Of a DNA stretch of 12,241 bases, positions 274 to 10,792 are shown piece after piece; positions within the stretch are counted from its first letter, which is position 1, and each line of letters opens with the position of its first letter. Made by a program: the position numbers and the translations under genes. The stretch lies in the NCBI GenBank assembly GCA_025449435.1, contig JANWJO010000198.1, positions 1-12,241 of the forward strand. The letters are read 5' to 3'. The DNA is from Chloroflexota bacterium. Lineage in GTDB: Bacteria > Chloroflexota > UBA4733. Under the pieces are notes generated by a model. That model was not told where the DNA came from. It worked only from the letters and a program-made list of their open reading frames with translations, and made no database searches.

Positions 274-279
274 TCCTCA
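274..279 (-). promoter_or_regulatory. Shine-Dalgarno site next to array 1
   Basis: TGAGGA on the minus strand lies 6 nt before the GTG start at 267. It begins directly beside the edge of array 1 (CGCT at 280-283), so the mRNA leader of this gene is array sequence up to the ribosome binding site. It decides the GTG start. Confidence 0.55.
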
Positions 280-390
280 CGCTGCGTCAGATTGGTTCTA
301 CTATGCGGCACTGGCACGCTTCGTTACGTTGGGTCTACTATCGCGTACTGGCACGCTGGTATTGATTGGGTCTGCTCGGCCTTTTTGGCT
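280..390. repeat. array 1: three 37-bp monomers
   Basis: Three monomers fill exactly 111 bp (3 x 37). Each is CGCT, 9 nt, a central 10-mer, 9 nt, TGGCA. The central blocks start at 293 (TGGTTCTACT), 330 (TGGGTCTACT) and 367 (TGGGTCTGCT). The junction blocks TGGCACGCT are at 312-320 and 349-357. The left edge keeps only the CGCT half of the junction block and the right edge only its TGGC half. The array overlaps the 3' end of the RHH gene and supplies its last codons and stop. One monomer-plus stretch is an exact copy of part of array 4. Confidence 0.92.
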
Positions 391-594
391 TATGACATAC
401 TCCCGCAACACAAACACCCTGACGGCCGAAGTGCGGGTGGTCTTCGGCAACCGGTCCATGGTCACTTGCTTGACCAGCTTGGCGATAGGCACACCGCGCT
501 TGATGGCGATAGCGCGCAGCGCCAACCAGAACTCATCCTCTAGAGTGATGCTGGTTTGCAGCCCTTCCAGATCCAGTGAGTGCTTGTGCAGCAT
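301..594 (-). CDS. ribbon-helix-helix protein (RHH_4-like) with array-encoded tail
   Basis: This 97-residue protein has a ribbon-helix-helix domain at about residues 12-63. It follows the RHH_4 pattern: a strand (LQTSITLEDEF), a helix with WLALRAIAIKRG, a second helix starting IAKLVKQV, and the typical end SAVRVFVLREY. Proteins of this family bind DNA as dimers and are often repressors, so a regulatory role is inferred. The start is ATG at 594 with a GGGGT ribosome binding site. The known domain ends near residue 66. Residues 69-97 are translated from array 1, and the TAG stop at 303-301 lies in array sequence. The natural stop has therefore been lost or displaced by the array. The tail is low in hydrophobics and may be unstructured. 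Confidence 0.85.
   Translation of the reverse strand: MLHKHSLDLEGLQTSITLEDEFWLALRAIAIKRGVPIAKLVKQVTMDRLPKTTRTSAVRVFVLREYVISQKGRADPINTSVPVRDSRPNVTKRASAA
312..357. repeat. 46-bp exact repeat, copy 1 (array 1)
   Basis: This stretch spans TGGCACGCT, a variable 9-mer, TGGGTCTACT, a second variable 9-mer and TGGCACGCT. It is identical to 8334-8379 in array 4, including both otherwise hypervariable 9-mers (tcgttacgt and atcgcgtac). The two copies are about 8 kb apart. Identity in the variable parts points to a recent copying or recombination event between arrays. Confidence 0.95.
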
Positions 595-606
595 GAGCGT
601 ACCCCA

Positions 607-690
607 TCAGTAAACCCACAGCAGGAAGAACAAAAACACCAGCAACAGGATGACGCACAGCCCCAGCTTGATGCGCCAGTCCTCCCTCAT
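607..690 (-). CDS. 27-residue membrane peptide
   Basis: The peptide has a short charged start (MREDWRIKLG) followed by about 16 hydrophobic residues (LCVILLLVFLFFLLWVY), which is one membrane segment reaching the C-terminus. The Arg and Lys residues before the segment suggest an N-in orientation. The ATG overlaps the stop of the upstream gene as ATGA, so translation is probably coupled. The stop TGA at 609-607 overlaps an ATG, but the next real gene starts at 594. The family is unknown. Small single-span proteins like this are common in phage gene clusters. A chance ORF is possible at this length, but the hydrophobic composition and the overlap argue for a gene. Confidence 0.6.
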   Translation of the reverse strand: MREDWRIKLGLCVILLLVFLFFLLWVY

Positions 691-884
691 GCCTCCTCCA
701 ACATTTTCGGGTCCCACAACGGCATAATGCTCCAACGGCCTTTGCCAGACCCCAAGTTAGTACTAGCCCAACGCGCCGCTGCATCAGCAGTGGCAAACGG
801 TCCCCACAAGTTCAAAGCGGTTGGGGTACGTGCCCACAGGATGTAGCTGCCGGGATGAAACCCGCGCTCAACCACAGCCGTCAC
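687..884 (-). CDS. small hypothetical protein, start uncertain
   Basis: The frame gives about 65 residues from GTG at 884, or 62 from GTG at 875. There is no ATG in a sensible place. The body has a compact mixed pattern: SYILWARTPTALNLWGPFATA, then an Ala-rich helix (DAAARWASTN), then RWSIMPLWDP. The GPF plus Ala-rich helix pattern is like small proteins that use a G-P-F turn before an amphipathic helix, but I cannot name a family. The gene overlaps the 25-residue ORF upstream and ends by ATGA overlap with the 27-residue membrane peptide. No signal peptide or membrane segment is visible. Confidence 0.6.
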   Translation of the reverse strand: MTAVVERGFHPGSYILWARTPTALNLWGPFATADAAARWASTNLGSGKGRWSIMPLWDPKMLEEA

Positions 885-945
885 AGATATCGGGTGGCCT
901 GGGCGGGATAGGCGGCAATGCTGGCGTGCGGCTAGTAGTGTCCAT
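868..945 (-). CDS. 25-residue peptide with CxxC end
   Basis: The tiny ORF starts at ATG 945, inside the last codons of the membrane-protein gene, and ends at TGA 870-868, inside the next gene. It is Pro-rich in the middle (LPPIPPRPP) and ends with CDGCG, so Cys21 and Cys24 form a CxxC pair that could bind a metal. Overlap at both ends fits the coupled style of this cluster. At 25 codons it could be chance, so confidence is low. Confidence 0.35.
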   Translation of the reverse strand: MDTTSRTPALPPIPPRPPDICDGCG

Positions 946-1153
946 GAAACAACGGCACACTGAACCCTGCGACACCAATCAGGCTCAAAATCACCCACAG
1001 CACAATCAGCACCAGAACTACCACCATCAGCACATAGATGATGCGGCGGAACGGCTCTGGCAGCGGGATAAGTGGCAACAGTTGCTGCAGCGCCCACCAC
1101 AACACGCCAACTATTATTAATGTAACGATGATGCCGATCAATGCCCCGATCAT
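932..1153 (-). CDS. two-span membrane protein, Thivi_2564-like
   Basis: This 73-residue protein has two hydrophobic spans, about residues 2-21 (IGALIGIIVTLIIVGVLWWA) and 37-58 (RIIYVLMVVVLVLIVLWVIL). They are joined by a short loop with LIPLPEPFRR. The layout, a helix, a Pro-rich hinge, then a very Val/Leu-rich helix, matches what I recall of the Thivi_2564 family of small membrane proteins found in phages and proteobacteria. The function is not known. The start is ATG at 1153, with AAAGGA 7 nt upstream. The frame is open further upstream, but that part is Arg/Pro-rich and overlaps the lipoprotein gene. Confidence 0.75.
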   Translation of the reverse strand: MIGALIGIIVTLIIVGVLWWALQQLLPLIPLPEPFRRIIYVLMVVVLVLIVLWVILSLIGVAGFSVPLFHGHY

Positions 1154-1164
1154 GGCTCGATCCT

Positions 1165-1344
1165 TTATCTGTGCCAGAGGAAGTGGCGCGGGTGGCAGCG
1201 ATAGACCACGCCATTGGGCGCCTGACACCATTGCCGGTGCTCGTGCCGATACACCAGCACGCCGCCGACCAAGCCACCAACCAGCAGCGGCGCGCAACTC
1301 GAGAGCAGCGCTGCCGCTGTAACAATGGCAAGCGCCCGGATCAT
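1165..1344 (-). CDS. small putative lipoprotein
   Basis: The protein has 59 residues. The N-terminus MIRALAIVTAAALLSSC is a lipoprotein signal peptide with lipobox LSSC, so cleavage before Cys17 and lipid attachment are expected in a Gram-negative host. A Gly/Val-rich stretch follows (LLVGGLVGGVLV), then a polar tail with Cys40 and Cys50, two His-Arg clusters and a C-terminal FLWHR. The start ATG overlaps the previous stop as ATGA. Next to a two-span membrane protein and a tiny membrane peptide it could belong to an envelope or lysis module such as an Rz1-like spanin. It lacks a Pro-rich Rz1 body, so that is only a guess. Confidence 0.7.
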   Translation of the reverse strand: MIRALAIVTAAALLSSCAPLLVGGLVGGVLVYRHEHRQWCQAPNGVVYRCHPRHFLWHR

Positions 1345-1646
1345 CGATTCAGCAGGTGTACAAACTGCTCGGCGGTCATGCCAAGCTTGACGCCATCAAC
1401 GACGACGGTCTCGGGCACGGCAGGTTTGCCCGGCACCGCCTCCTTGGCTTCTTTCTTTTCCACGGGCGGCGTTCCCCCAAGTCCGGTGGTCGGATCAGCT
1501 GGCTCGCCAGGATGACCTTCGACCGCCTCCTGTGCCGGCTGTTCTGGCACTTCAGGCTCGCCCGGCTCCACCTCGATCGACTTGATCTGCGAGACGATAA
1601 TGATCTTCGGCTTGCCGTCTTCATAAGCGATAATTGCGGTAGGCAT
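1341..1646 (-). CDS. acidic Pro/Glu-rich hypothetical protein
   Basis: This 101-residue protein has three parts. Residues 1-28 form a likely beta hairpin (MPTAIIAYEDGKPKIIIVSQI). Residues 29-80 are low complexity, with many Pro, Glu, Gly and Ala and repeated PxxP and GEP motifs, and are probably disordered. Residues 81-101 (VVVDGVKLGMTAEQFVHLLNR) look like a small folded tail with an amphipathic helix. The start ATG at 1646 follows GGGAGA at a 10-nt spacing. The long unstructured linker suggests two small binding ends joined flexibly. The family is unknown. Its stop overlaps the lipoprotein start. Confidence 0.75.
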   Translation of the reverse strand: MPTAIIAYEDGKPKIIIVSQIKSIEVEPGEPEVPEQPAQEAVEGHPGEPADPTTGLGGTPPVEKKEAKEAVPGKPAVPETVVVDGVKLGMTAEQFVHLLNR

Positions 1647-1708
1647 GATGTTTTGTCTCCCTGTTAAGATTGTGATTGCCCCGAAACGACACGTCCTTAA
1701 GGCAGGGC

Positions 1709-1963
1709 CTAGGATGTTGCCTCGGATTGAACGGCCGTTTCGGGTTTCCCTGCAACGATGGCCTTGACCTGTTCGAACTCGGCGTGCTGCAAATGCAGGT
1801 GCGCCTTACCGTCGCCGGTCTGCCGCATCTGGTTATTGATAAAGCCTATCAGCTGCTGCTGCTTACGCCCACGTAACACATGCAACATCGCCAGATACTC
1901 ATCCCATGGCATTTCGATGCGATACAACGGACTCAAACGCGTTGGGATGATAGTATACTTCAT
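1709..1963 (-). CDS. small hypothetical protein
   Basis: The likely protein has 84 residues from ATG at 1963, directly after the previous stop at 1977. A longer frame upstream overlaps the neighbouring gene and has poor composition. The sequence has a mixed N-terminus (MKYTIIPTRLSPLYRIEMPWDEYLAMLHVL), a basic-polar segment (RGRKQQQLIGFINNQMRQ) and a helical C-terminus with HAEFEQVKAIVAG. No membrane segment or known motif is seen. The gap of 62 nt to the next gene downstream is one of the few non-array gaps in this half of the window and shows nothing clear. Confidence 0.7.
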   Translation of the reverse strand: MKYTIIPTRLSPLYRIEMPWDEYLAMLHVLRGRKQQQLIGFINNQMRQTGDGKAHLHLQHAEFEQVKAIVAGKPETAVQSEATS

Positions 1964-1976
1964 TAGGCAGCTGCAC

Positions 1977-2264
1977 TTAACGTTTAAGCCGCTGCAAGAA
2001 CGCACCGTAAGTCCACTCCGCGCGCTCTTCACCAAGTATGTCACCACGCGCAAGCTCGTTCAGTTCACACCACTCCTGCGTCCGATTGCGAACTGACGCA
2101 AAGCCATCATGATTCAACTCAAGCCAATCGTGCTTGCGATTCAGCGCACTGGCTACGCGAGCGCAGGCACAATGGTAGGGGTTCGCCCAATCGTACGTGG
2201 TTTCGGGATCTTGCTGCTCCAACCAAGCGATGATCAAATCACGCAGCGGGGTCTTTGCCAGCAT
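1977..2264 (-). CDS. hypothetical protein with HCACARVASAL motif
   Basis: This 95-residue soluble protein starts at ATG 2264 with a strong GGGAGG ribosome binding site. Residues 3-17 form a helix (AKTPLRDLIIAWLEQQ). An acidic aromatic stretch follows (TTYDWANPYHCACARVASAL), then a basic helix with RKHDWLELN and a C-terminal helix (WTYGAFLQRLKR). The two Cys in HCAC are the only obvious special residues. The mix of short helices with scattered Trp resembles small phage regulatory or host-takeover proteins, but I cannot assign a family. Confidence 0.75.
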   Translation of the reverse strand: MLAKTPLRDLIIAWLEQQDPETTYDWANPYHCACARVASALNRKHDWLELNHDGFASVRNRTQEWCELNELARGDILGEERAEWTYGAFLQRLKR

Positions 2265-2276
2265 GTCATCCTCCCA

Positions 2277-2543
2277 TTACTTTGTGGTTTCACACACTGT
2301 GGTGGTCGGGTTCTTCTTGGCGTAGGCGGCGGTGACGAACTTGCCGCTGGTGGCGTCACGGCAGTTGCTGCTCTTGGCTTTGGTGCTCTTGACCGTTGGC
2401 TTGACCGACAACGGCTTGACCGGCGTCGGCGCGGTTGGTGGACCTTGGGTTGTCGGTGGCGGTGGTGGCATCTGCGGAGGTGGAGTCTGCGCCTGCGCCG
2501 ACCAGCTGATCAACAACACGCCCAGCATCAAGATCGATCGCAT
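2277..2543 (-). CDS. secreted Pro-rich protein with CRDATSGKFV tail
   Basis: The protein has 88 residues. MRSILMLGVLLISWSAQAQ is a signal peptide with a likely cleavage after Ala-Gln-Ala near residue 18, so export is expected. Residues 20-58 are Pro/Thr/Lys-rich and disordered. The C-terminal 30 residues (CRDATSGKFVTAAYAKKNP, then TTTVCETTK) form a motif I recall from many small proteobacterial and phage proteins, of the form RDxxTGxFVxxxYAxxNPxTTVxE. Its role is unknown to me. The two Cys could bridge in the periplasm. The start follows AAAGGAG at 2557-2551. Confidence 0.8.
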   Translation of the reverse strand: MRSILMLGVLLISWSAQAQTPPPQMPPPPPTTQGPPTAPTPVKPLSVKPTVKSTKAKSSNCRDATSGKFVTAAYAKKNPTTTVCETTK

Positions 2544-2550
2544 TTTTAGA

Positions 2551-2557
2551 CTCCTTT
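2551..2557 (-). promoter_or_regulatory. strong Shine-Dalgarno site
   Basis: AAAGGAG on the minus strand lies 7 nt before the ATG at 2543 and overlaps the TAA of the upstream gene. It is one of the best ribosome binding sites in the window, which suggests strong translation of the secreted protein. Confidence 0.7.
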
Positions 2558-2744
2558 AATGTGTATTGTCGTTGAGTAAGGTTGCAAGAATAACTTGCAG
2601 AGTCTCCATGGGGCGCTCGTGAACAATAATGGAGTGGTCCGGGCCAAGGCCAATCTCTAGCTTATCCTTGATCACCTGCATTTCTTTTATGGCCTGAGTC
2701 TGCACCCAGGTTTCAGGTTTTTCGGCTATTTTGATAAGCGCCAC
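2556..2744 (-). CDS. small hypothetical protein, GTG start
   Basis: This 62-residue protein starts at GTG 2744, chosen because TAGGAG sits 6 nt upstream. It has a mostly helical, charged N-terminal half (KIAEKPETWVQTQAIKEMQV, then IKDKLEIGLG). The C-terminal half begins PDHSIIVHE and ends LQVILATLLNDNTH, which may be a beta strand and an amphipathic helix. There is no membrane segment and no recognised motif. It sits in a run of genes of similar size with tight spacing. Confidence 0.72.
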   Translation of the reverse strand: MALIKIAEKPETWVQTQAIKEMQVIKDKLEIGLGPDHSIIVHERPMETLQVILATLLNDNTH

Positions 2745-2750
2745 TTGCCG

Positions 2751-2756
2751 CTCCTA
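2751..2756 (-). promoter_or_regulatory. Shine-Dalgarno site deciding a GTG start
   Basis: TAGGAG on the minus strand is placed 6 nt before GTG 2744. Its first three bases are the TAG stop of the upstream gene, so termination and re-initiation are probably linked. Confidence 0.65.
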
Positions 2757-2930
2757 TTCTGCCTCGACCATCTGGTCCTGGAGCGCCTTCATAACGCTCT
2801 CGGTTGGTTGGCAATCTTCGGACATTAGGATCACGCCGTTGTCCGCGTCATACACATAAAAGCCATACATGCGCTCGGCGTCATCGGGCATTGCCTGTTC
2901 GTATCCGAATCCAAACTTTAGCCGCAACAT
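2754..2930 (-). CDS. 58-residue hypothetical protein
   Basis: The ORF reads from ATG 2930, six nt after the previous stop, with AGGGG just upstream. The protein starts MLRLKFGFGYEQAMPDDAER and continues with an aromatic strand (MYGFYVYDADNGVILMS) and an acidic helical tail with SVMKALQDQMVEAE. The pattern of strand, acidic loop, strand, helix suggests a small folded domain. It has a single Cys40. No family is recognised. Confidence 0.7.
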   Translation of the reverse strand: MLRLKFGFGYEQAMPDDAERMYGFYVYDADNGVILMSEDCQPTESVMKALQDQMVEAE

Positions 2931-2936
2931 CCGCCC

Positions 2937-3128
2937 CTATTCTGACTTGGATCGCGATAGGGTCACAGCCACCTGGGCAGCGACGATTGCTTCTGCAATC
3001 ATCAAGGTTAGCTTCGATAGTTTTTCCCACCCTGGCATCCCATGCGTGGCCCACATATGCGGATCATTGCAGCAATCATCTATGACCCGTTCAGCTCGTT
3101 GCATCGGGGTCGGTTGCACGGCTGTCAT
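2937..3128 (-). CDS. small helical hypothetical protein
   Basis: This 63-residue protein starts at ATG 3128. The first half is polar, with a vicinal Cys pair (VIDDCCNDPHMW) and GMPGWEKLSK. The second half is a long helix (LTLMIAEAIVAAQVAVTLSR) that is hydrophobic enough to be a weak membrane segment or a buried helix. Small phage proteins of the form RAERVIDDCCxDP with a helical tail may exist, but I cannot name one. It ends six nt before the next start. Confidence 0.7.
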   Translation of the reverse strand: MTAVQPTPMQRAERVIDDCCNDPHMWATHGMPGWEKLSKLTLMIAEAIVAAQVAVTLSRSKSE

Positions 3129-3140
3129 TCTTTTAATCTG

Positions 3141-3263
3141 CTAGAGATGCGGCATTAAAACGAAGTAGACGAAAGCGAATCCGCCAAGGACCACGAGCAG
3201 GGAGACTGCCACTATGCCTGTGCCGAACAGGATGGCTCTCATCATCAATACCAAGTCACCCAT
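3141..3263 (-). CDS. 40-residue single-span membrane protein
   Basis: The ORF starts at ATG 3263, inside the last codons of the upstream gene, giving an 8-nt overlap (ATGGGTGA). The sequence is MGDLVLMMRAILFGTGIVAV followed by SLLVVLGGFAFVYFVLMPHL. Residues 10-37 are strongly hydrophobic with small residues in the middle, a clear membrane helix. An alternative start at the two internal ATG codons would give 34 residues. With the neighbour at 3256-3354 this makes a pair of adjacent small membrane proteins, a common layout for lysis or envelope functions. That role is a guess. Confidence 0.65.
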   Translation of the reverse strand: MGDLVLMMRAILFGTGIVAVSLLVVLGGFAFVYFVLMPHL

Positions 3264-3354
3264 ATTTCACGCTACCGATCATATACAGCAGCAGCACGAT
3301 GGTCCACACGACGATATTGGCGCAAATCAAGCAACCATTATTGCTCAAATACAT
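3256..3354 (-). CDS. 32-residue single-span membrane protein
   Basis: The sequence starts MYLSNNGCLICANIVVWTIV and ends LLLYMIGSVKYG. Residues 9-27 form a hydrophobic helix, with a CxxC pair (Cys8, Cys11) at its start and a basic end. The ATG overlaps the upstream stop as TGATG, and its own stop lies inside the next gene, so coupling is expected on both sides. The function is unknown. Confidence 0.6.
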   Translation of the reverse strand: MYLSNNGCLICANIVVWTIVLLLYMIGSVKYG

Positions 3355-3521
3355 CACTGGCCCCAGTTGGCATTGACCGCGTCGAGCACCACCTGCGGCA
3401 CCAGATCAGCGGAGTCATCCACAGCCAAGTGGCCTTCGGCATCGATCTGCACCCGCCACACATCGCCCGCGCTGGTGAAGATGTAAGCTACACCCTCATA
3501 CAGCTCGCAGGCAACGATCAT
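3354..3521 (-). CDS. 55-residue hypothetical protein
   Basis: The protein starts MIVACELYEGVAYIFTSAGD and continues VWRVQIDAEGHLAVDDSADL. It alternates short strands and turns, like a small beta domain, and ends with a helix that includes VPQVVLDAVNANWG. The ATG at 3521 overlaps the stop of a 15-codon ORF as ATGA, and its TGA overlaps the next ATG. Codon composition is like the neighbours. No family is recognised. Confidence 0.7.
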   Translation of the reverse strand: MIVACELYEGVAYIFTSAGDVWRVQIDAEGHLAVDDSADLVPQVVLDAVNANWGQ

Positions 3522-3565
3522 GCATAGTCCATCGGTGAGCCGCCGCCTAAACCATGATCACTCAT
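3518..3565 (-). CDS. 15-codon ORF linking two genes
   Basis: The sequence is MSDHGLGGGSPMDYA. The ATG lies in the last codons of the 24-codon ORF (overlap ATGAGTGA), and the stop overlaps the next ATG as ATGA. It may serve only to pass ribosomes along. It could be chance, but the exact overlaps at both ends continue the pattern of the cluster. Confidence 0.3.
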   Translation of the reverse strand: MSDHGLGGGSPMDYA

Positions 3566-3632
3566 GGCCCACACTCACCAGCACACGTACGGTGAGGGTT
3601 TGGAAGTGCGACGGCTCATGCATGGACTTCAT
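3558..3632 (-). CDS. 24-codon ORF
   Basis: The peptide starts MKSMHEPSHFQTLTVRVLVS and ends VGHE. Its ATG overlaps the previous stop as ATGA. The middle (LTVRVLVSV) could be one beta strand. With the 15-codon ORF it fills what would otherwise be a 107-nt gap. Real translation is plausible because of the overlap, but there is no other support. Confidence 0.35.
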   Translation of the reverse strand: MKSMHEPSHFQTLTVRVLVSVGHE

Positions 3633-3892
3633 TTACTGAACTGTTCGAGCAGAAACAGCACCGCATCGTCACGCTTGCGGTAATAGTCGTTCACCAGCTC
3701 CATAGCAGTATCACTCATAGGCAACTGCTCACCAGCCATCTGCCGGTCTGCAACATCCTGCACCGCTAACCGCAATTGCTGCAACTCGGCCAGCAGCTCC
3801 GCCGCCTGACTCTTCGGCCCGCGTACAATCCCCAGGTCGGCACTAACGCCGCCCGCACCGCCCATGATGCGCTCGCCTTCGACATTGCTCAT
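3629..3892 (-). CDS. hypothetical protein with helical core
   Basis: The protein has 87 residues from ATG 3892, which overlaps the previous stop as ATGA. The first 25 residues are Gly-rich and flexible (ERIMGGAGGVSADLG). A helix follows (QAAELLAELQQLRLAVQDVA) with heptad-like Leu spacing, then a loop and a second helix (AMELVNDYYRKRDDAVLFLL). Two amphipathic helices joined by a Met/Pro loop suggest a helical hairpin that may form dimers. No family is recognised. Confidence 0.72.
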   Translation of the reverse strand: MSNVEGERIMGGAGGVSADLGIVRGPKSQAAELLAELQQLRLAVQDVADRQMAGEQLPMSDTAMELVNDYYRKRDDAVLFLLEQFSK

Positions 3893-4062
3893 CGCGCTTT
3901 ATGCTCCGGGAACGCGGTCACGTTGCTGCTGGTGATGCATGGCTTGGCCGCCAAGCTGTTGTAGATATCGCAGCCGCATAGCTGACAGACAATCCAGCCA
4001 TGCCGCTTGGTCCACAGGTGGCTGGGGTCGGTCTTCGCCTGCGGCTTACCTTGCTCCAGCAT
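3889..4062 (-). CDS. 57-residue Cys-rich protein, zinc-finger-like
   Basis: The ORF starts MLEQGKPQAKTDPSHLWTKR and has a Cys cluster at Cys26, Cys29 and Cys31 (CQLCGC), with Cys42 further on. This spacing with Trp/Ile around it (HGWIVCQLCGCDIY) resembles a zinc ribbon or treble-clef knuckle, so zinc binding is inferred. The ATG overlaps the upstream TGA as TGATG, and the stop overlaps the next ATG as ATGA. The small size suggests a regulator or adaptor. Confidence 0.65.
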   Translation of the reverse strand: MLEQGKPQAKTDPSHLWTKRHGWIVCQLCGCDIYNSLAAKPCITSSNVTAFPEHKAR

Positions 4063-4238
4063 CAGTATATACCAAGCCCCTTGCTGAGCCGATCCAGGTC
4101 AGTGCTGAATCGATTCATCTTGTCGCGAATATTCTCCAGCAGCAAAGTATGGCTGATCGCGGCCTGCTCGATCCTAACCAACCGCTGCTCGACGGCGTCC
4201 AATTTGTCAATGAACGACTGCTCGACTTGTTCGGTCAT
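4062..4238 (-). CDS. 58-residue coiled-coil protein
   Basis: The sequence starts MTEQVEQSFIDKLDAVEQRL and continues VRIEQAAISHTLLLENIRDK. Hydrophobic residues recur at heptad positions (L, V, L, I, A, L, I), which is a coiled coil over most of the length. The end (STDLDRLSKGLGIY) keeps the pattern. The ATG overlaps the upstream stop as ATGA. It follows directly on another coiled-coil gene of similar design (4235-4483), so the two may be partners or diverged duplicates. Confidence 0.65.
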   Translation of the reverse strand: MTEQVEQSFIDKLDAVEQRLVRIEQAAISHTLLLENIRDKMNRFSTDLDRLSKGLGIY

Positions 4239-4483
4239 GACGGTGGCTGCCGATCCTTTACCATCGCGGTCAGCTCGGCGATGCGGGCCTGTACCCCCTC
4301 GACCAGCGCTTGCTGCATTTTATACATGTTCTCGATCAAGGCAACGATGCGGTTGTTATGCTCGGCCATGCCCTGCATACTCCGCTCCAGCTCGGCCACC
4401 CGCACCGCCAGCATATCCAGCTGCGACCTGGGCGGGGTGACGGCGCGCATTGCCGCCATGGTGCTAGGGTCGACGTCGCTCAT
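4235..4483 (-). CDS. 82-residue coiled-coil protein
   Basis: After a polar N-terminus (MSDVDPSTMAAMRAVTPPRS), residues 20-77 form a long helix with heptad-like spacing: LDMLAVRVAELERSMQGMAE, then NNRIVALIENMYKMQQALVE, then GVQARIAELTAMVKDRQ. A coiled coil is likely. The start is ATG 4483, one nt from the previous stop. Phages often place small coiled-coil proteins among structural or lysis genes, but nothing here fixes the role. Confidence 0.72.
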   Translation of the reverse strand: MSDVDPSTMAAMRAVTPPRSQLDMLAVRVAELERSMQGMAEHNNRIVALIENMYKMQQALVEGVQARIAELTAMVKDRQPPS

Positions 4484-4484
4484 A

Positions 4485-4733
4485 TCAGTGCCAGAATCCT
4501 GCTAGTTGTTTCTGCCCCACCCATACTTTGCCGTTATAGGCGGCTTGGTACTTGCCGTTGTGGTAGGTCCAATAGCTGCCTAATGGCGGCGGTGGCGGAC
4601 GATAGCATGTCATCTCGGTGCAAGGCCGCACATTCACACCATGATAGCCAACGCCGCCAGTTGCATTGAGGCCGATAATGACGCCGGCATAAGCTATCAG
4701 CTTAAGGGTACCGAAGTCGATCATCGACGCCAT
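4485..4733 (-). CDS. 82-residue protein with N-terminal hydrophobic helix
   Basis: The start is taken as ATG 4733. ATG at 4724 is also possible. Residues 10-22 (LKLIAYAGVIIGL) form a short hydrophobic helix that could be a signal or membrane anchor. Then come VRPCTEMTCYRP with two Cys, a run of five Pro, and an aromatic region (GSYWTYHNGKYQAAYNGKVW) ending LAGFWH. The Tyr/Trp/Gly repeats look like a small beta domain outside the membrane. The gene overlaps the end of its upstream neighbour by about 30 nt. The family is unknown. Confidence 0.65.
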   Translation of the reverse strand: MASMIDFGTLKLIAYAGVIIGLNATGGVGYHGVNVRPCTEMTCYRPPPPPLGSYWTYHNGKYQAAYNGKVWVGQKQLAGFWH

Positions 4734-4872
4734 GCTCTCGCCTGAACTTCTCAATGGCATCATCAAGCTGTTTACCCAATGCGATATCGTCCTCGCCTCG
4801 CATGCGCGCCATCCACAACGCCCGCACCATGCGGGTCACCAGCAGCAGGTATTGCGCTTCAGCATCGGTCAT
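4702..4872 (-). CDS. 56-residue helical protein
   Basis: The start is ATG 4872, overlapping the previous stop as ATGA. The frame is open further upstream but would overlap the neighbour without a good start. The protein is almost all helix (MTDAEAQYLLLVTRMVRALW, then MARMRGEDDIALGKQLDDAI) with an acidic/basic tail that includes EKFRREHGVDDR. It is amphipathic rather than membrane-spanning. No family is recognised. Confidence 0.68.
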   Translation of the reverse strand: MTDAEAQYLLLVTRMVRALWMARMRGEDDIALGKQLDDAIEKFRREHGVDDRLRYP

Positions 4873-5159
4873 GCCACCACGCCTTGGATCACCGGCAACA
4901 GGTGCACAGGCACAGGATCGGTGTGCGCCCACCACATCGCCTCATACACCACGTAATAAACGCCCGGCGTCAGGGTAGCCGCCTCCCGCGCCGCATCCAT
5001 CGCCGACTTGCTGTCAGGGTATAAAGCATTGATCACCCCACTGCCGCCAATGCCTGCGGTGGTCCAGGTATTGCCGCCGACCGAATCGTCCAGCGTCGGA
5101 TCGATCCCAGGAGTAAACGCGGTGACGATCCAATGCTTGATGACGGGGGTTTCGGCCAT
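4869..5159 (-). CDS. hypothetical protein downstream of array 2
   Basis: The likely start is ATG 5159 (96 residues). A GTG at 5168 in the same frame lies 1 nt from the array edge. There is no clear Shine-Dalgarno site before either, and the leader is array sequence. The protein starts MAETPVIKHWIVTAFTPGID, has a Gly/Ser/Thr-rich middle (GGNTWTTAGIGGSGVINALY), an Ala-rich helix (SAMDAAREAATLTPG) and aromatic strands (VYYVVYEAMWW). It is probably a small soluble alpha/beta domain. The family is unknown. Confidence 0.72.
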   Translation of the reverse strand: MAETPVIKHWIVTAFTPGIDPTLDDSVGGNTWTTAGIGGSGVINALYPDSKSAMDAAREAATLTPGVYYVVYEAMWWAHTDPVPVHLLPVIQGVVA

Positions 5160-5169
5160 TGCAATCACA

Positions 5170-5801
5170 CGCTAGTCTGGGTTGGGTCTGCTTGATATCG
5201 TTGGCAACGCTATTTGTTCATGGGTCTTACTTGACGGCTGAGGCACGCTAGTATGTTTTGGGGCTGCTTTACATAACTGGCACGCTGGCATTTCTTGGAT
5301 CTACTCAAATACTCTGGCACGCTGGGGGAGCCTGGGTCTACTCTTGTCAACTGGCACGCTATGCTATTTTGGGTCTGCTATCAACGTTTGGCACGCTGGA
5401 TCTTTCTGGGTCTGCTCCTGAGCTCTGGCACGCTTAGTCTCTTGGGTCTGCTACACGGTTACTGACACGCTGCGATCAACTGGATCTACTCGAACACCCT
5501 GGCACGCTGAGACTCATTGGATCTACTTGAGCACTCTGGCACGCTATTAAGCCATGGGGCTACTTATCTTGACTGGCACGCTGCTTCAATTTGGGTCTAC
5601 TGCCGTGCTATGGCACGCTAACCATCTCTGGGTCTACTCTTCAAGACTGGCACGCTTGAACCAACTTGGGGCTACTAGCTTCAACTGGCACGCTTATTCT
5701 CGTTGGGTCAGCTACTTTCGTTGGGCACGCTAGCTACGCTTGGGTCTGCTAAACCTTCCTGGCACGCTCTTCCTGACTGGGTCTGCTATCGAATGTTGGC
5801 A
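5170..5801. repeat. array 2: 17 monomers of 37 bp
   Basis: Central blocks start at 5183, 5221, 5259, 5296, 5333, 5370, 5407, 5443, 5481, 5518, 5555, 5592, 5629, 5667, 5704, 5741 and 5778. They are mostly TGGGTCTACT, TGGGTCTGCT, TGGATCTACT and TGGGGCTACT. Junction blocks TGGCACGCT lie between them. The span is 632 bp, against 629 for 17 x 37. Small indels fall mostly in the blocks (for example TGGCAACGCT at 5202 and TGGGTCTTACT at 5221), while variable segments stay 9 nt except at 5435 (8), 5453 (10), 5657 (10) and 5714 (8). Variable segments differ from each other. It fills the gap between two co-directional genes and contains no supported gene. Confidence 0.95.
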
Positions 5802-5812
5802 CGCACTGTGGA

Positions 5813-5833
5813 CAGCGTCAACAAGTGACGCTG
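5813..5833. other. perfect hairpin in the array 2 interruption
   Basis: CAGCGTCA at 5813-5820 and TGACGCTG at 5826-5833 are perfect reverse complements around a 5-nt loop (acaag), so either strand could form an 8-bp stem. It lies in the 27-nt non-array stretch 5802-5828 between the end of array 2 and the lone monomer. The right arm includes the CGCT that begins the lone monomer. There is no T-run on either side, so it is not a typical intrinsic terminator, although it lies after the stop of the upstream gene. Confidence 0.7.
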
Positions 5834-5865
5834 CCGTTGTCTGGGTCTGCTCGGAGACCGTGGCA
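5829..5865. repeat. solitary 37-bp monomer
   Basis: CGCT at 5829-5832, 9 nt, TGGGTCTGCT at 5842-5851, 9 nt, then TGGCA at 5861-5865 give exactly one monomer of 37 bp. It is separated from array 2 by 27 unrelated nt and ends one nt from the TAA of the coiled-coil gene. It shows that the basic unit runs from CGCT to TGGCA, rather than from one central block to the next. Confidence 0.85.
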
Positions 5866-5866
5866 A

Positions 5867-6346
5867 TTACCGATGTGCACTAGGATGTGCACCCGACGCC
5901 AATGGATTGACGGTCGGGGCATTCGGATCGGCGGGAGTGTTGGCGCTAATGGCCGCACCCAACGCCGCAGCCGAACTGTTGAGCTGTGAAGCCAATGCCT
6001 GCAGCGCCGATGAGTCGTTGTTGGCCACCGCATCGGTGATCTGCTTGGCCAGCCCCTGGATCAGCGTCACCGCCGACTGTTCGAGGTTCGTGTTCGCCTG
6101 TACCTGTGCTTGCAGATCGTCTAAGGCAGCCATGATATGCTTCTCCTGGGTTTGAAGGGTAGCTAAGCTCGTCTTCTGCACTTGTAGACTCGTTTGCAGC
6201 TGATTCAACTGCAATTGAATGCTGGCCAGCTGCGTCATCAGATTATTAAAATCGCGCTGGGTCCAGAAATATACGCCGCCGATATTCGCCACATCGATCT
6301 CCAGTGCTCCTGGACGCAACCGTATACTGAGTTCGGGGCCATCCAT
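5867..6346 (-). CDS. coiled-coil phage protein
   Basis: The protein has 159 residues from ATG 6346, which overlaps the upstream stop as TGATG. Residues 1-30 are a mixed N-terminal part (RLRPGALEIDVANIGGVYFW). Residues 31-85 are a long Gln/Leu-rich coiled coil (NLMTQLASIQLQLNQLQTSL and onwards). Residues 86-135 form a further helical stretch with the pattern NTNLEQSAVTLIQGLAKQI, and then SALQALASQLNSSAAALGAA. The end is a Pro/Ala/Asn-rich linker. I recall this Leu/Ala heptad design from many small phage proteins of unknown role in or near structural genes. The stop lies one nt from the lone 37-bp monomer. Confidence 0.8.
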   Translation of the reverse strand: MDGPELSIRLRPGALEIDVANIGGVYFWTQRDFNNLMTQLASIQLQLNQLQTSLQVQKTSLATLQTQEKHIMAALDDLQAQVQANTNLEQSAVTLIQGLAKQITDAVANNDSSALQALASQLNSSAAALGAAISANTPADPNAPTVNPLASGAHPSAHR

Positions 6347-6585
6347 CAGTCGGGCTTCTGCGCAAGCTGCTCGGCTTGCTGCTTGGCACGTATGAGCTTT
6401 TCCTGGTTTTGCAAATGCGCCTCCGCCCGCGCCACGTACTCGATGGCATCCTGGCGGAAATTATCGATCCAGCCGAAGTCCCACGCCCGGTCCAGCAGTA
6501 CCTCCATGCGCATGCGGCGCAAGCCGCCTTTGCGGCGTCGGGCTTTACGATACTCGCGCATCACTTGCTTAACGGTGACTGTCAT
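6346..6585 (-). CDS. 79-residue basic helical protein
   Basis: The start ATG 6585 overlaps the stop of the zinc protein as ATGA, and the end overlaps the next start as TGATG. The N-terminal third is very basic (MREYRKARRRKGGLRRMRME) and could bind nucleic acid. The rest is helical, with WDFGWIDNFRQDAIEYVARA and a charged Gln/Glu/Ala tail that suggests a coiled coil. The family is unknown. Its place between a zinc-finger protein and a coiled-coil protein, all coupled, suggests that the three act together. Confidence 0.75.
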   Translation of the reverse strand: MTVTVKQVMREYRKARRRKGGLRRMRMEVLLDRAWDFGWIDNFRQDAIEYVARAEAHLQNQEKLIRAKQQAEQLAQKPD

Positions 6586-6731
6586 GCATCTGGCTCGCGC
6601 ACGGTGGGGTGGTCATCCTGCTCACTGATGAAGCCTGCACCATGGCAGTTCGGGCAGGTTTCCCAAGTGCTATCCTCGGCTTCGACCCTGCCGACGCCAT
6701 TGCAATCAGGGCATACTTTTACATCAGCCAT
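6582..6731 (-). CDS. 49-residue protein with two CxxCxGxG motifs (DnaJ-type zinc finger)
   Basis: The ORF starts MADVKVCPDCNGVGRVEAED and has CPDCNGVG at residues 7-14 and CPNCHGAG at residues 26-33. These are two CxxCxGxG motifs like those of the DnaJ cysteine-rich zinc domain, and four Cys are available to bind one zinc. The tail is acidic. In DnaJ these motifs bind zinc and help hold unfolded proteins. In small phage proteins the role is unknown, and protein or RNA binding are both possible. The gene lies just after array 3 in the direction of transcription and has no clear Shine-Dalgarno site. Its stop overlaps the next start as ATGA. Confidence 0.85.
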   Translation of the reverse strand: MADVKVCPDCNGVGRVEAEDSTWETCPNCHGAGFISEQDDHPTVREPDA

Positions 6732-6754
6732 ATGCAGCCACCGCTTAGGCATTG

Positions 6755-6866
6755 CGCTGTCGTACGTTGGGTCTTCTCAAGCTAATTGGCACGCTTGCAT
6801 CGTCTGGGTCTGCTAGCTTCAGTTGGCATCGCTGCGGAACATTGGGTCTGCTCGGTCAGCTTGGCA
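6755..6866. repeat. array 3: three monomers downstream of the TROVE gene
   Basis: Central blocks are at 6768 (TGGGTCTTCT), 6805 and 6843 (both TGGGTCTGCT). Junction blocks are at 6787-6795 and 6824-6833 (TGGCATCGCT, one base longer). The left edge begins with CGCT at 6755-6758 and the right edge ends with TGGCA at 6862-6866, four nt from the TAA of the TROVE gene. The variable segments are all 9 nt. It fills the gap between the TROVE gene and the zinc-protein gene. Confidence 0.92.
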
Positions 6867-6870
6867 TGGT

Positions 6871-8226
6871 TTAGTCTTCCTCCCCCATGCTCACTGGCAG
6901 CAGGCGGCCCTCGGTGGCCTGGATATAGCGCAGCACGTTCTCGGAGAAGCCGGTGACGTGTGCGGTCCAACCCTCGCCATAACCGACGCCGTTCTTATAG
7001 CTGCCGATATTGATCATGTAGGCGTAAGGGAACTGCGGCGCCGCCACCTGATCATGACTTTGCTCGTCGGTGATGACAATCAACCGCTGCGCCGTGATCT
7101 CGTTGCTGAGCTTGCGAATGGCAGCGCCCATATAAGTGCCGCCATTGGGCTGCGAGCGGATGATGCTGGGTATCCCAGCCAAGCCGCGCTCGCAGCTCAC
7201 TTCCACCAAGTTATTGGAAAAGCTGAATATGCGGCGCTCACCCTTGACGATACAAGCTAGGGCTGCGGCCGCATCCATGCGGGTCAAGTCGGACCGCTGT
7301 GATAGCTGATCCTGCATGCTGCCCGACACGTCGACCAGCACTATGGTCATGCCTGGAAGGTCGGGCAACAAATCGATGCTGGCACCCATTGCCTCGTTCA
7401 ATGCCGATTCGTATTGCGGGGCAGCCCGCGCGGCAGCGACAAAGCGGAACGGTAGCACCCGATGCGCCCCGTTGCGGCGCGCCAAGATGGCATCGGTCAC
7501 CAGCATGGAGTTGACGTGCGCCTCGACCATGTTGCGCAGGTTACGCAGCAGTGCGAGGTAGCCAAGCTGTCCCTCACGCAGCAGCCGCTCGAAGGTGGCC
7601 TTCTTGTCGGCGCCGCCGCTGAGCGCCACCTCCCAAGTATCGGGCGTGGCCAGCTCGTGCTTCACCACCTTGCGCCACAGCTCGGCCTGCGCCTCATCCT
7701 TGGGCTTGGGGCGGGCAATGCGCAATACATCACGCAGTGATAGCTGCCCCCTGCGGTCATACTTCGCCAGCTGATATTCGTCGAACCTGGGCAACAGCTT
7801 GCGGATGCCATTGGCCCAACCATGCGGGATCTTGCGCTGGTTCTGCCCACGTGCCTTCTGGCAGGCGAGGATGATGGCCAAGCTCTCGGCCATCTCGTCC
7901 ACCCGCTGGATGGTATGCGCCATGGTTACCGGCAGCAGTGATGGATTGCGCCGTGACAGGATCTCCAGCAACAGCAACGGGGCATGTCGCAAGTTGAATG
8001 AGGTGCGCGCCTCGATGGCCAATTCGGCTAGCTTGTCGGCAGGCACCAAGGCCGCGACTTCAGCTATGCGCTGCGCGATATCCTTGCCGGATTCATAAAA
8101 CTGTCGTTCCCACAGCATGCAGGCCAGCAACGACCGTCGCAGCTGCGCCACCGGGTCGGTCAATGCGACCGCGGGCGCCCCCTCATGGGTTCTGGCGGTG
8201 ACGTTGAGGCGGGCCATACCAATCAT
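6871..8226 (-). CDS. TROVE-domain protein, Ro60 (Rsr) family
   Basis: The 451-residue protein matches the Ro60 layout. Residues 20-285 are an all-helical TROVE domain of HEAT-like repeats (for example NLRHAPLLLLEILSRRNPSL and FDEYQLAKYDRRGQLSLRDV). Residues 293-451 are a von Willebrand A-like domain with a MIDAS motif at Asp299, Ser301 and Ser303 (VDVSGSM), a Thr365 loop (NGGTYMG) and Asp387 (ITDEQ). Ro60 proteins form a ring that holds single-stranded RNA ends in its hole and binds Y RNAs outside. In bacteria they work with exonucleases in RNA decay and quality control. The start is ATG 8226, with ATG 8217 as an alternative. Neither has a clear Shine-Dalgarno site, and the leader is array 4. 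Arrays lie on both sides of the gene. Confidence 0.95.
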   Translation of the reverse strand: MIGMARLNVTARTHEGAPAVALTDPVAQLRRSLLACMLWERQFYESGKDIAQRIAEVAALVPADKLAELAIEARTSFNLRHAPLLLLEILSRRNPSLLPVTMAHTIQRVDEMAESLAIILACQKARGQNQRKIPHGWANGIRKLLPRFDEYQLAKYDRRGQLSLRDVLRIARPKPKDEAQAELWRKVVKHELATPDTWEVALSGGADKKATFERLLREGQLGYLALLRNLRNMVEAHVNSMLVTDAILARRNGAHRVLPFRFVAAARAAPQYESALNEAMGASIDLLPDLPGMTIVLVDVSGSMQDQLSQRSDLTRMDAAAALACIVKGERRIFSFSNNLVEVSCERGLAGIPSIIRSQPNGGTYMGAAIRKLSNEITAQRLIVITDEQSHDQVAAPQFPYAYMINIGSYKNGVGYGEGWTAHVTGFSENVLRYIQATEGRLLPVSMGEED

Positions 8227-8227
8227 C

Positions 8228-8412
8228 CGCTATTTATCATTGGGTCTACTACGCACAACTGGCACGCTCGTTCGGCGTGGGTCTACTGGGGAGTGCTGGC
8301 ACGCTATTCAAGTTTGGGTCTACTTGATGAGATTGGCACGCTTCGTTACGTTGGGTCTACTATCGCGTACTGGCACGCTCAGACGCATTGGGTCTACTGA
8401 AACACGCTGGCA
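8228..8412. repeat. array 4: five monomers directly upstream of the TROVE gene
   Basis: The array is 185 bp, exactly 5 x 37. Central blocks TGGGTCTACT, identical in all five monomers, start at 8241, 8278, 8315, 8352 and 8389. Junction blocks TGGCACGCT at 8260, 8297, 8334 and 8371 are also identical. All ten variable segments are 9 nt. The left edge is CGCT at 8228-8231, one nt from the TROVE ATG, so the array is its 5' leader. The right edge is TGGCA at 8408-8412. This is the most uniform array and may be the youngest. Confidence 0.95.
8334..8379. repeat. 46-bp exact repeat, copy 2 (array 4)
   Basis: Identical to 312-357 in array 1, including both variable 9-mers. Confidence 0.95.
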
Positions 8413-8414
8413 GT

Positions 8415-8424
8415 CCGACGTCGG
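8415..8424. other. 10-bp perfect palindrome
   Basis: CCGACGTCGG lies three nt beyond the end of array 4, at the left border of the non-array insert. It could be an operator or a recombination site. A similar inverted repeat, GACCGA-G-TCGGTC, occurs at 8569-8581. Confidence 0.5.
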
Positions 8425-8496
8425 TGCAACGAGGCAAGTGATGGCTACTGAGTTTCTTATCATAGAAGTATCAGCAGCACGCAGCGCTCGTTGCAC
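8424..8496. ncRNA. candidate structured RNA next to the TROVE gene
   Basis: GTGCAACGA at 8424-8432 pairs perfectly with TCGTTGCAC at 8488-8496. This gives a 9-bp stem closing a 55-nt loop, and the loop itself is the first copy of an imperfect 80-nt repeat. No supported gene covers it. Bacterial Y RNAs are usually encoded beside their Ro60 gene, so a Y-like RNA is possible. However, I could not find a tRNA-like T-loop or the usual Y-stem motif, and I cannot tell the strand. Confidence 0.25.
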
Positions 8497-8567
8497 AAAC
8501 GCCAGTGGCCCGGCAAATGATGGCTACGGATTCTCATTTGATGCGAAGTATCCGTAACACGCAGCGC
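8433..8567. repeat. imperfect direct repeat, two copies about 80 nt apart
   Basis: Copy 1 begins at 8433 and copy 2 at 8512. The first conserved part is 19 nt with two differences (8433-8451 and 8512-8530). The second is 23 nt with three differences (8465-8487 and 8545-8567) and ends CACGCAGCGC in both. The part between is diverged. The insert 8413-8614 that contains it separates arrays 4 and 5 and holds no supported gene. Confidence 0.75.
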
Positions 8568-8568
8568 G

Positions 8569-8581
8569 GACCGAGTCGGTC
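8569..8581. other. inverted repeat GACCGA-G-TCGGTC
   Basis: A perfect 6-bp inverted repeat around one central base lies just after the second copy of the 80-nt repeat. It could be a protein site. As RNA the one-base loop would need to open. Its pair, in a sense, is the CCGACGTCGG palindrome at 8415. Confidence 0.4.
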
Positions 8582-8902
8582 ATACGCTAAAATACCATGC
8601 CAAGGCAAGTGGCGCGCTGCGCTTATTTGGTTCTGCTCATTAGGCTTGGCACGCTCGTTAAACCTGGGTCTGCTTGTTGATGCTGGCACGCTTTATTGGC
8701 TTGGGTCTACTCCCGCCCTATGGCACGCTGTTTGATCTTGGATCTACTAAAGCCGAATGGCACGCTGTTCTACGTTGGATCTACTTTTCGATTCTGGCAC
8801 GCTGGTCTTGCCTGGGTCTGCTGGAACTCGCTGGCACGCTTCATCCATATGGGTCTGCTAGTTCACTATGGCCGCGCTTGTTCACTTTGGTTAGCCTCGC
8901 CG

Positions 8903-8934
8903 TAACTGGCTCGCTGTAACGTATTGGATCTACT
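8903..8934. repeat. 32-bp exact repeat within array 5, copy 1
   Basis: This stretch covers TGGCTCGCT, the variable 9-mer gtaacgtat and TGGATCTACT, plus four bases before them. It is identical to 9090-9121. The shared rare variant TGGCTCGCT and the shared 9-mer mark a duplication inside the array. Confidence 0.95.
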
Positions 8935-9089
8935 TCATCAATTTGGCACGCTACTAAACGATGGAGCTACTTTTCGGTTTTGGCACGCTCGTCTGCCTTG
9001 GGTCTACTGAGGCAGAGTGGCACGCTGGCAACGATTGGGTCTACTCAAGTACGTTGGCACACGCTAAGATTAACTGGGTCTACTAGCGT

Positions 9090-9121
9090 TAACTGGCTCG
9101 CTGTAACGTATTGGATCTACT
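9090..9121. repeat. 32-bp exact repeat within array 5, copy 2
   Basis: Identical to 8903-8934, five monomers away. The monomers between the two copies are not repeated in order, so this was a copy of one unit and not of a block. Confidence 0.95.
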
Positions 9122-9322
9122 CGCACCGTCTGGCACACTTGGTCTTCGTGGGTCGACTACGGTGAATTGGTACGCTGCTTAATTTTGGATCTTACTCGCA
9201 GTATCTGGCACGCTGGCGGCCTTTGGGTCTGCTCGGCGTCTCTGGCTCGCTGGGGAAAACTGGATCTGCTCGATTTAGGTGGCACGGCCTATATAGCGGG
9301 CCGCAGCCGCCTTGGCAACCCC

Positions 9323-10792
9323 CTATTTCGACCAGCCACTGTAGCTGTGGTCGTAAAGTGGTCCGCCAGTTAATTTAGCAAAGGCTCCCGCTGCAGCGTC
9401 GATCTGGTCCAGGTACTTGCCGTTCGGATAGCTTTCGGCCTCGTTGAGGAACTCGTAGTTCCAGGTGCCAGCTACCAGCCTTACATTGTTGTTCTGCACC
9501 TGCGCCGCAAACGGTTCGGCGCGCACCTCGTTGGAGCCGGTAACCTTGTCGGCGTAGGCGTTGAACCCCGCCAAGTTCCTGATGCTGGCCTCGGCTGATT
9601 CCTTGCCGCCGCTGCCCGGCTCCTGCTCCACCCAGACCTCGTAGCTATAACCATACTGCTGCACGTCCATGCTGGCGAAGGTCTTGATGTGCTGCTCGCG
9701 CTCCAGCGCGCCCCAGCGTCCTCTGGCTACATGGCTGATGACGAACTGGCCGTTTTTAGTCTCGTGCATCAGCACCATGGCGGTGTAAGCGCCCTCGCCG
9801 CCCTCGGTGCCAGCTTTGTCGATGTAGCGGATCGACCGCTTGATCATGTCGCGGTTGAAGCTCGCGATGCAGGTCAGCTTATCGATCGGGAAGATGCCGC
9901 CGCCGATCACGATCGGGTGCTGCTGGTACTCGGATTGCCAGCTGGCCTCGGTCATCAGCTTCTTGCGTTCCAGCAGGTGGTCCAGCGGCTTGACCGAGGG
10001 AAACAAGGCGGTGCCTGCACGGCGGAACGGCTCGTCATGCTCGGCGATGGCTGGATAGCTGACGATGGTGACGTCCTTTTCCCGCTCCAGGTAGCGGCCC
10101 AGCAGGTCGTCGACGTGCCAGCGGGTCATGATGATCAGCTGCCCCGACGTCCTGGACATGCGCGGCATCCAGTCGTCGGTGAACCAGTTCCACACCTTGG
10201 CGCGCTCGGCCACGCTCAAGGCTTCGGCGCGCCCCTTGTGCGGGTCGTCGATCACGCCCAGGTGCAGCTCTTTGCCGTTGATGCCCGACTCCACCGTGGT
10301 GTTGATGAAGCTGCCGCCGGTGGCGATGCCAGCGTGGTTGGCGAACTCGACCAGCCACTGGTTGGCGATCAGGCCGTTGCCGCCGGTGTGCAGCGCGGGG
10401 AACGCCGCCTGGAACTTGGCGTCGGCCCAGATCCGCTGCAGGTTGCGGTTACGCTGCGTGCCCAGGTCATCCGAATAGCTGGCGAAGATGACCTTGAGCT
10501 TGGGGTTGTTGCCGACAATCCAAGCGATGAAGTCCTCGACGGTTAAACTCTTGCCATGCTGCGGCGGCGCCATGATGGCCATGCGCGGGCGCTTGCCGTC
10601 GAGCAGATCCTTGGCGAACTGCTGCAATCGGTAAGCCACCGTCTTGGTCCACCAGTTCCAGCGCAGCTCGGGGCGCATGTAGGCGCGATACTCGCGAAAG
10701 CTTGCCCGCACATCGTGCAGCCGCAGCTGATCTAGCAGGTCGGGCGTATCTGGCGGCTGCGGCGGCAACCGCAACCGTACCGCGGCGGTCAT
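9323..10792 (-). CDS. terL: terminase large subunit (TerL)
   Basis: The 489-residue protein is the packaging motor ATPase and nuclease that fills the phage head with DNA. Residues 75-82 (APPQHGKS) are the Walker A motif. LGVIDDP at 179-185 is the Walker B acidic strand. IMTRWHVDDLLGR at 221-233 is the coupling motif typical of this terminase family. The nuclease domain has Asp325 (YIDKAG), VWVEQEPGSGGKE near 387-398, and a final DQIDAAAGAFAKL. Length and motif order are normal for a full-length TerL. The start ATG 10792 overlaps the upstream stop as ATGA. The stop at 9325-9323 lies 38 nt before array 5. Nothing looks broken. Confidence 0.97.
   Translation of the reverse strand: MTAAVRLRLPPQPPDTPDLLDQLRLHDVRASFREYRAYMRPELRWNWWTKTVAYRLQQFAKDLLDGKRPRMAIMAPPQHGKSLTVEDFIAWIVGNNPKLKVIFASYSDDLGTQRNRNLQRIWADAKFQAAFPALHTGGNGLIANQWLVEFANHAGIATGGSFINTTVESGINGKELHLGVIDDPHKGRAEALSVAERAKVWNWFTDDWMPRMSRTSGQLIIMTRWHVDDLLGRYLEREKDVTIVSYPAIAEHDEPFRRAGTALFPSVKPLDHLLERKKLMTEASWQSEYQQHPIVIGGGIFPIDKLTCIASFNRDMIKRSIRYIDKAGTEGGEGAYTAMVLMHETKNGQFVISHVARGRWGALEREQHIKTFASMDVQQYGYSYEVWVEQEPGSGGKESAEASIRNLAGFNAYADKVTGSNEVRAEPFAAQVQNNNVRLVAGTWNYEFLNEAESYPNGKYLDQIDAAAGAFAKLTGGPLYDHSYSGWSK

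Follow-up and report, generated by a model that had tools for sequence, protein, structure and literature searches.

Five probable TIGR arrays spread through the late operon of a phage fragment, with predicted guides for a Tas protein likely encoded elsewhere

The 12,241-nucleotide (nt) contig JANWJO010000198.1 of the Chloroflexota assembly GCA_025449435.1, referred to here at its full length as the window, is a 12.2-kb phage fragment. Its assigned genes all lie on the minus strand and encode a large terminase, a TROVE/Ro60-like protein, a NusG-like protein, and a ribbon-helix-helix (RHH) protein. Five arrays of a 37-bp unit, holding 47 units in all (3+18+3+5+18), are spread over 9 kb among these genes (Table 1). 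An initial annotation had described the unit on the plus strand. The unit stands, but the functional strand is the minus one, which also carries the assigned phage genes. Read in this direction, each unit consists of an edge repeat (AGCG/TGCCA), a 9-nt spacer A, a loop repeat (AGYAGAYCCA), and a 9-nt spacer B. Judged by sequence, the arrays are new members of the TIGR arrays, which were published in 2025 (Faure et al., 2025; PMC12045711), with an unusual layout, and not a new family.

The 9-nt edge AGCGTGCCA and the 10-nt loop alternate through all 47 units, and both carry a box C (CCA) and a box D (AG). Parsing and a pattern search with the two blocks (at most three mismatches; 38 matches in the window vs. 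0.02 expected from 200 dinucleotide shuffles) confirmed the 37-bp period, the 47 units in five loci, and the maximum of 18 units per array given in the initial annotation. Its statement that 90 of 94 variable slots measure exactly 9 nt was right in kind but not in number. The count is 91 of 94 on a parse that scores two ambiguous block-end insertions as 10-nt slots, and the exceptions measure 10 nt (unit 5694) and 10 and 8 nt (unit 5471). Per-position entropy, calculated for 46 of the 47 units, is 1.42-1.97 bits in the slots and 0 in eight block columns, as the fixed blocks and free slots first described had suggested. The blocks also gain bases while the slots hold 9 nt: six blocks are longer by one or two bases, and every insertion falls between box D and box C, which leaves the box-to-spacer distance unchanged. 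Exact CCA and AG boxes 9 nt apart flank 87 of the 94 spacers in chains; the first unit of array 2, which is detached, adds another two. One correction to the initial description is that a 10-bp hairpin interrupts array 2 after that first unit. One unit of array 4 carries both spacers of a unit of array 1.

Table 1. Predicted arrays and assigned genes in the window.
Feature	Position	Strand	Details
TIGR array 1	278..389	-	3 units; overlaps the RHH open reading frame (ORF) 3' end and precedes the gene starting at 267; GCCA to AGCGTG
TIGR array 2	5168..5865	-	18 units; TGCCA (5'-truncated edge) to AGCGTG (3'-truncated edge); hairpin interrupts after unit 1
Hairpin insertion, 10 bp	5797..5835	-	Inside an array 2 edge repeat, between first and second unit (about 5804-5832); not counted as a unit
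TIGR array 3	6755..6866	-	3 units; starts 4 bases past the TROVE stop codon; TGCCA to AGCG
TIGR array 4	8228..8412	-	5 units; end adjoins the listed TROVE start codon (8226); TGCCA to AGCG
TIGR array 5	8610..9286	-	18 units; downstream of the large terminase gene; begins CGTGCCA, ends with full edge-like AGCGCGCCA
RHH protein (RHH_4)	301..594	-	PF13467 E=2.6e-17; open frame enters array 1
Protein of unknown function	5867..6346	-	Stop codon adjoins array 2; Nop domain absent from the matches listed at E≤10
TROVE/Ro60-like RNA-binding protein, 451 aa	6871..8226	-	PF05731 E=9.6e-16; phrog_850 E=6.2e-46; arrays 3 and 4 on either side
Terminase large subunit	9323..10792	-	phrog_38 E=1e-73
NusG-like protein	11660-12151	-	Upstream of the arrays, same direction

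Published TIGR arrays comprise two alternating repeats of 8-12 nt and 9-nt spacers in units of about 36 nt, lie in phages in many cases, and give rise to paired guide RNAs that target DNA (Faure et al., 2025; PMC12045711). That paper also describes truncated edges at both array ends, a box C (CCA), and a box D. A rho-independent terminator follows the array 'typically' but is not a defining trait (PMC12045711). The window arrays combine two distinct alternating repeats of 9 and 10 nt, 9-nt spacers A and B, both boxes in edge and loop, and, in arrays 1 to 4, truncated edges; array 5 ends in a full edge-like repeat. The initial annotation had regarded the design as an undescribed family, a view overturned by its publication in 2025 and by a phage named there whose edge repeat differs by one base. 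Its two proposals on function fare better, since set distances suit recognition of the blocks by a protein-RNA complex, and slots that store short sequences fit TIGR spacers.

The named phage, CGphi29, is given as a TasH system (PMC12045711) and was used as a positive control. Its array (edge AGCGAGCCA, one base away from AGCGTGCCA; loop AAGACAACCA; period 36) lies just downstream of a 309-aa gene that has a Transposase_20 match and is labeled hypothetical in its record; this gene is taken here for tasH. A search for CCA-N9-AG chains of at least five links recovers the window arrays (6, 29, 6, 10, and 36 links), CGphi29, and a related IMG/VR contig, L018. When each of 51 records was base-shuffled once, no chain appeared. 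Among 25 loci from a TasH alignment search of IMG/VR, several on near-identical contigs, 16 have chains of at least four links, and nine have looser period-36 arrays, which come from a second scan without its own shuffle control and in several cases have other box letters. All 28 chains are on the tasH strand, and 26 are within 0.51 kb of tasH. A TIGR array in L029 (16563-16702) is 5.6 kb from tasH on the same contig; arrays away from tas therefore do occur in a TasH phage. In Microcystis phage Mvi-JY20 (L024, about 6368-7500; L025, 7829-9187), a distant Tas accompanies an array of period 36 with edge ATGCGAGCC and a terminator-like hairpin just downstream, and the TROVE protein of this phage is about 82 kb from its Tas and array. 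In other hosts, the two-block pattern gave 15 single matches in genome_contigs vs. about 7 expected by arithmetic, none of them in an array; these were read as chance, as were the matches in L016, L017, and L022.

In TasR, processing leaves each guide with an edge part at either end, and these two parts form an extra base pair that the loop lacks (PMC12045711). The corresponding positions pair in all 45 parsed guides of the window (two of the 47 units, with slots other than 9 nt, were left unparsed), as G-C in 44 and A-U in one, whereas the loops have a standard pair at these positions in 1 of 45. The A-U guide, at 9171 in array 5, reflects a single compensatory event: its two changed bases lie 37 nt from each other, in separate edges that contribute to one predicted guide. 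For the comparators, the pair was counted inside a single repeat; most of their edge-like repeats have C-G, with T-A in L036, L039, and L040. Folding of two array segments on both strands was unremarkable vs. shuffles (z 0.02 to 1.54), and an Rfam search gave no match at E≤1. Pairing between slots was rejected: the best pair of positions (10 and 29) reached z=3.8 in about 2,000 tests without forming a helix, and the fold was no better than shuffles. A coding repeat was likewise ruled out: the 37-nt period is not divisible by three, and the slots interrupt the reading frames.

The related phage contig L018, 9.7 kb long, has about 10 units syntenic with array 1, whose edges are mostly AGCGGGCCA and also AGCGTGCCA. 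Of the three array 1 guides, two are found again in L018 with their order preserved and with 33 of 36 spacer bases identical. At identical residues of three neighboring genes, only 116 of 201 third codon positions match (58%). The difference is significant (Fisher P=5e-5), but the P value is generous because the guides were picked as best matches. Exchange between phages is another possible source of the two recurring guides. Spacers are also common singly. When 46 of the 47 window guides and nine guides from L018 were compared, 32 spacer pairs had at most two mismatches, whereas 200 column shuffles averaged 13.8 such pairs and never exceeded 26. One spacer is common while its partner is not in window units 8907 and 9094 and in two pairs within L018, with 7, 6, and 3 partner mismatches. 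This pattern, seen at the level of sequence, looks like half-unit shuffling at block boundaries.

Taken together, these features support, with a probability of about 0.9, a reading as five TIGR arrays whose RNA is predicted to be made along with that of the late genes and cut to guides, which are likely loaded on a Tas protein encoded outside the stretch. The late-operon transcript would carry the arrays, and a predicted cut inside each edge repeat would release guide RNAs of 36-37 nt. A Tas (Nop-domain) protein encoded beyond the sequenced stretch would likely bind them; box C and box D are Nop-domain contacts in TasR (PMC12045711). By analogy with the experimentally tested systems, the two 9-nt spacers of one guide would each base-pair with a different strand of a single DNA site of roughly 18 bp (PMC12045711), so that each unit would name one target. 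Whether the site is cut or merely bound would depend on the unseen Tas.

Several observations weigh against this assignment. One is the lack of a detectable Tas. A TasH profile gave nothing above noise in the window and L018 (E=3.3 at best in the window), compared with 1.2e-174 for the control and 1.3e-28 for the distant Mvi-JY20 Tas. No Nop or Transposase_20 match was found in the 16 window ORFs scanned among 81 listed mechanically (the listing for 6 of them was limited to E≤0.001) or in 9 of the 31 L018 ORFs, nor did the whole L018 record contain a Transposase_20 match. All window ORFs of at least 240 aa are assigned except a 285-aa frame antisense to the terminase, and the four L018 coding-strand ORFs of this size all match phage families, one of them weakly. 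Because both records are fragments, Tas may lie elsewhere. Known arrays adjoin tas, as the chain distances show, while no tas was detected near the window arrays. The minus strand also has no terminator-like site at any array end, unlike typical TIGR arrays. Together with the closeness of the arrays to the next gene, this absence suggests that they are probably cotranscribed with the late phage genes, and the NusG-like protein, if it acts as a phage antiterminator, could help transcription pass through them. The loop of 10 nt and unit of 37 nt depart from the 36-nt units of the TasH comparators. Nor is the edge pair universal: L030 has T-T in four of four edge-like repeats, and L035 and L039 have one unpaired repeat each.

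Target searches likewise gave no site above chance. The assumed target was spacer B, 0-2 nt, and the reverse complement of spacer A, a geometry derived from the 8-nt 3' overhang described in PMC12045711. With 46 of the 47 window guides and nine from L018, the array-masked window and L018 contained 22 sites with at most four mismatches vs. 18-43 in 20 permutations. In viral_contigs, a first pattern for the two conserved guides matched six contigs in two unrelated genes. Five of these contigs share one phage gene, which matches the L018 guide at 18 of 18 bases with a 1-nt gap and the window guide at 17 of 18; one contig differs. The shared gene may encode a DNA methyltransferase, given its DPPY motif. 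A second pattern matched seven contigs in two other genes. By a rough estimate made without a scrambled control, a few chance matches are expected for such patterns, and no target is therefore claimed.

The layout, in which five arrays sit between genes of a late operon along 9 kb, is unusual, and a literature search that covered neither bioRxiv nor most subscription papers turned up no TIGR arrays described as separate from tas. It raises the idea of a distributed TIGR system, in which five late-operon guide cassettes are uncoupled from tas and a phage Ro60 ring encoded between two of them acts as an RNA-handling partner or replaces Tas in binding the guides; this more specific proposal is considered very unlikely. 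Somewhat more doubtful still is a relic origin, in which TIGR arrays that outlasted the loss of tas have decayed and no longer function. Decay would explain why no Tas was detected in either the 12.2-kb window or the 9.7-kb L018, but it would erode the box spacing that is exact around nearly all spacers, and it would also erode guides, two of which recur between phages with only 58% identical synonymous positions.

Less probable again is that the Ro60-like TROVE protein, and not Tas, binds or matures the array RNA. The TROVE gene is positioned exactly between arrays 3 and 4, and Mvi-JY20 also combines a TROVE protein with a distant Tas and an array. However, the link between TROVE and the arrays is one of position alone: TROVE occurs in none of the 25 TasH records, which are fragments, no arrays were seen in the stretches read around TROVE of L019, L020, and L021, and the known contacts of box C and box D in TasR belong to a Nop domain. 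The least probable reading makes the arrays DNA sites for a protein (iterons, or partition or packaging sites) that touches RCT and TGG, roughly a helical turn from each other, with the slots left unread, and although fixed 9-bp gaps, near-random slots, and the RHH gene overlapping array 1 would suit it, it is opposed by the shared orientation of all five arrays and the L018 array relative to genes, the compensatory change in an edge-only pair 37 nt apart (one event), which fits RNA and not duplex DNA, the match of the repeats to those beside tasH, and the recurrence of two spacer pairs in L018.

The surrounding genes offer some further observations. The region 8412-8610, which separates array 5 from array 4 and lies upstream of the TROVE gene, contains a structured element in two imperfect copies (8433-8487 and 8512-8567). 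The minus strand folds with z=-5.1 at 8405-8520 and z=-3.4 at 8500-8615, and the stems of the two copies differ in both arms (CTGA/TCAG vs. CGGA/TCCG). This element has no Rfam match and may be a Y-RNA-like partner of the Ro60-like protein. The C-terminal tail of the RHH ORF would be partly encoded by array 1, and, judged by eye, the counterpart frame in L018 also enters its own array by a few codons. A DNA-level search for close phages gave matches limited to part of the TROVE gene, in six Xanthomonas phages. At the protein level, a TROVE with 85% identity (P0128) is encoded on a contig of 106,790 bp.

PMC12045711 leaves open the origin and change of TIGR arrays, their targets, and the maturation of the guides. 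With 47 guides in one 9-kb stretch, the window phage bears on array origin and change and on targets. Two results inform array change: the syntenic L018 array kept two guides while about 42% of synonymous positions changed, and the spacers common singly between units point to half-unit shuffling. If arrays in an operon away from tas are borne out, searches confined to the surroundings of tas would miss arrays.

Among known systems, CRISPR arrays share the combination of conserved repeats and variable spacers. Their repeats of 25-36 nt with spacers of like size (PMC12045711) differ from the two alternating repeats of 9-10 nt in the window, which rules out CRISPR, as the initial annotation had held. 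VIPR is a closer likeness in principle, as its vrRNA is a phage-encoded RNA in which conserved blocks alternate with hypervariable bases that name a DNA target (PMC13142463). However, vrRNA is built from 9-16 YNNGG repeats, each variable position spanning 2 nt, and carries a folded tail (PMC13142463), whereas the window has 9-10-nt blocks and 9-nt slots; a period of 37 with such slots, instead of YNNGG tandem repeats with hypervariable dinucleotides, excludes VIPR. Within the TIGR arrays, the hairpin insertion in array 2 recalls the stem-loop type. TasR arrays have UG as box D, whereas the window and CGphi29 have AG. The closest resemblance is to TasH arrays (Salicola phage CGphi29, SpTIGR), with which the window shares alternating edge and loop repeats, 9-nt spacers, CCA and AG boxes, the edge AGCGNGCCA, and the extra edge pair. 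In both the window and CGphi29, the array is on the coding strand of a phage structural operon. TasH systems carry their arrays beside tasH, whereas the window distributes its 47 units in five arrays across 9 kb.

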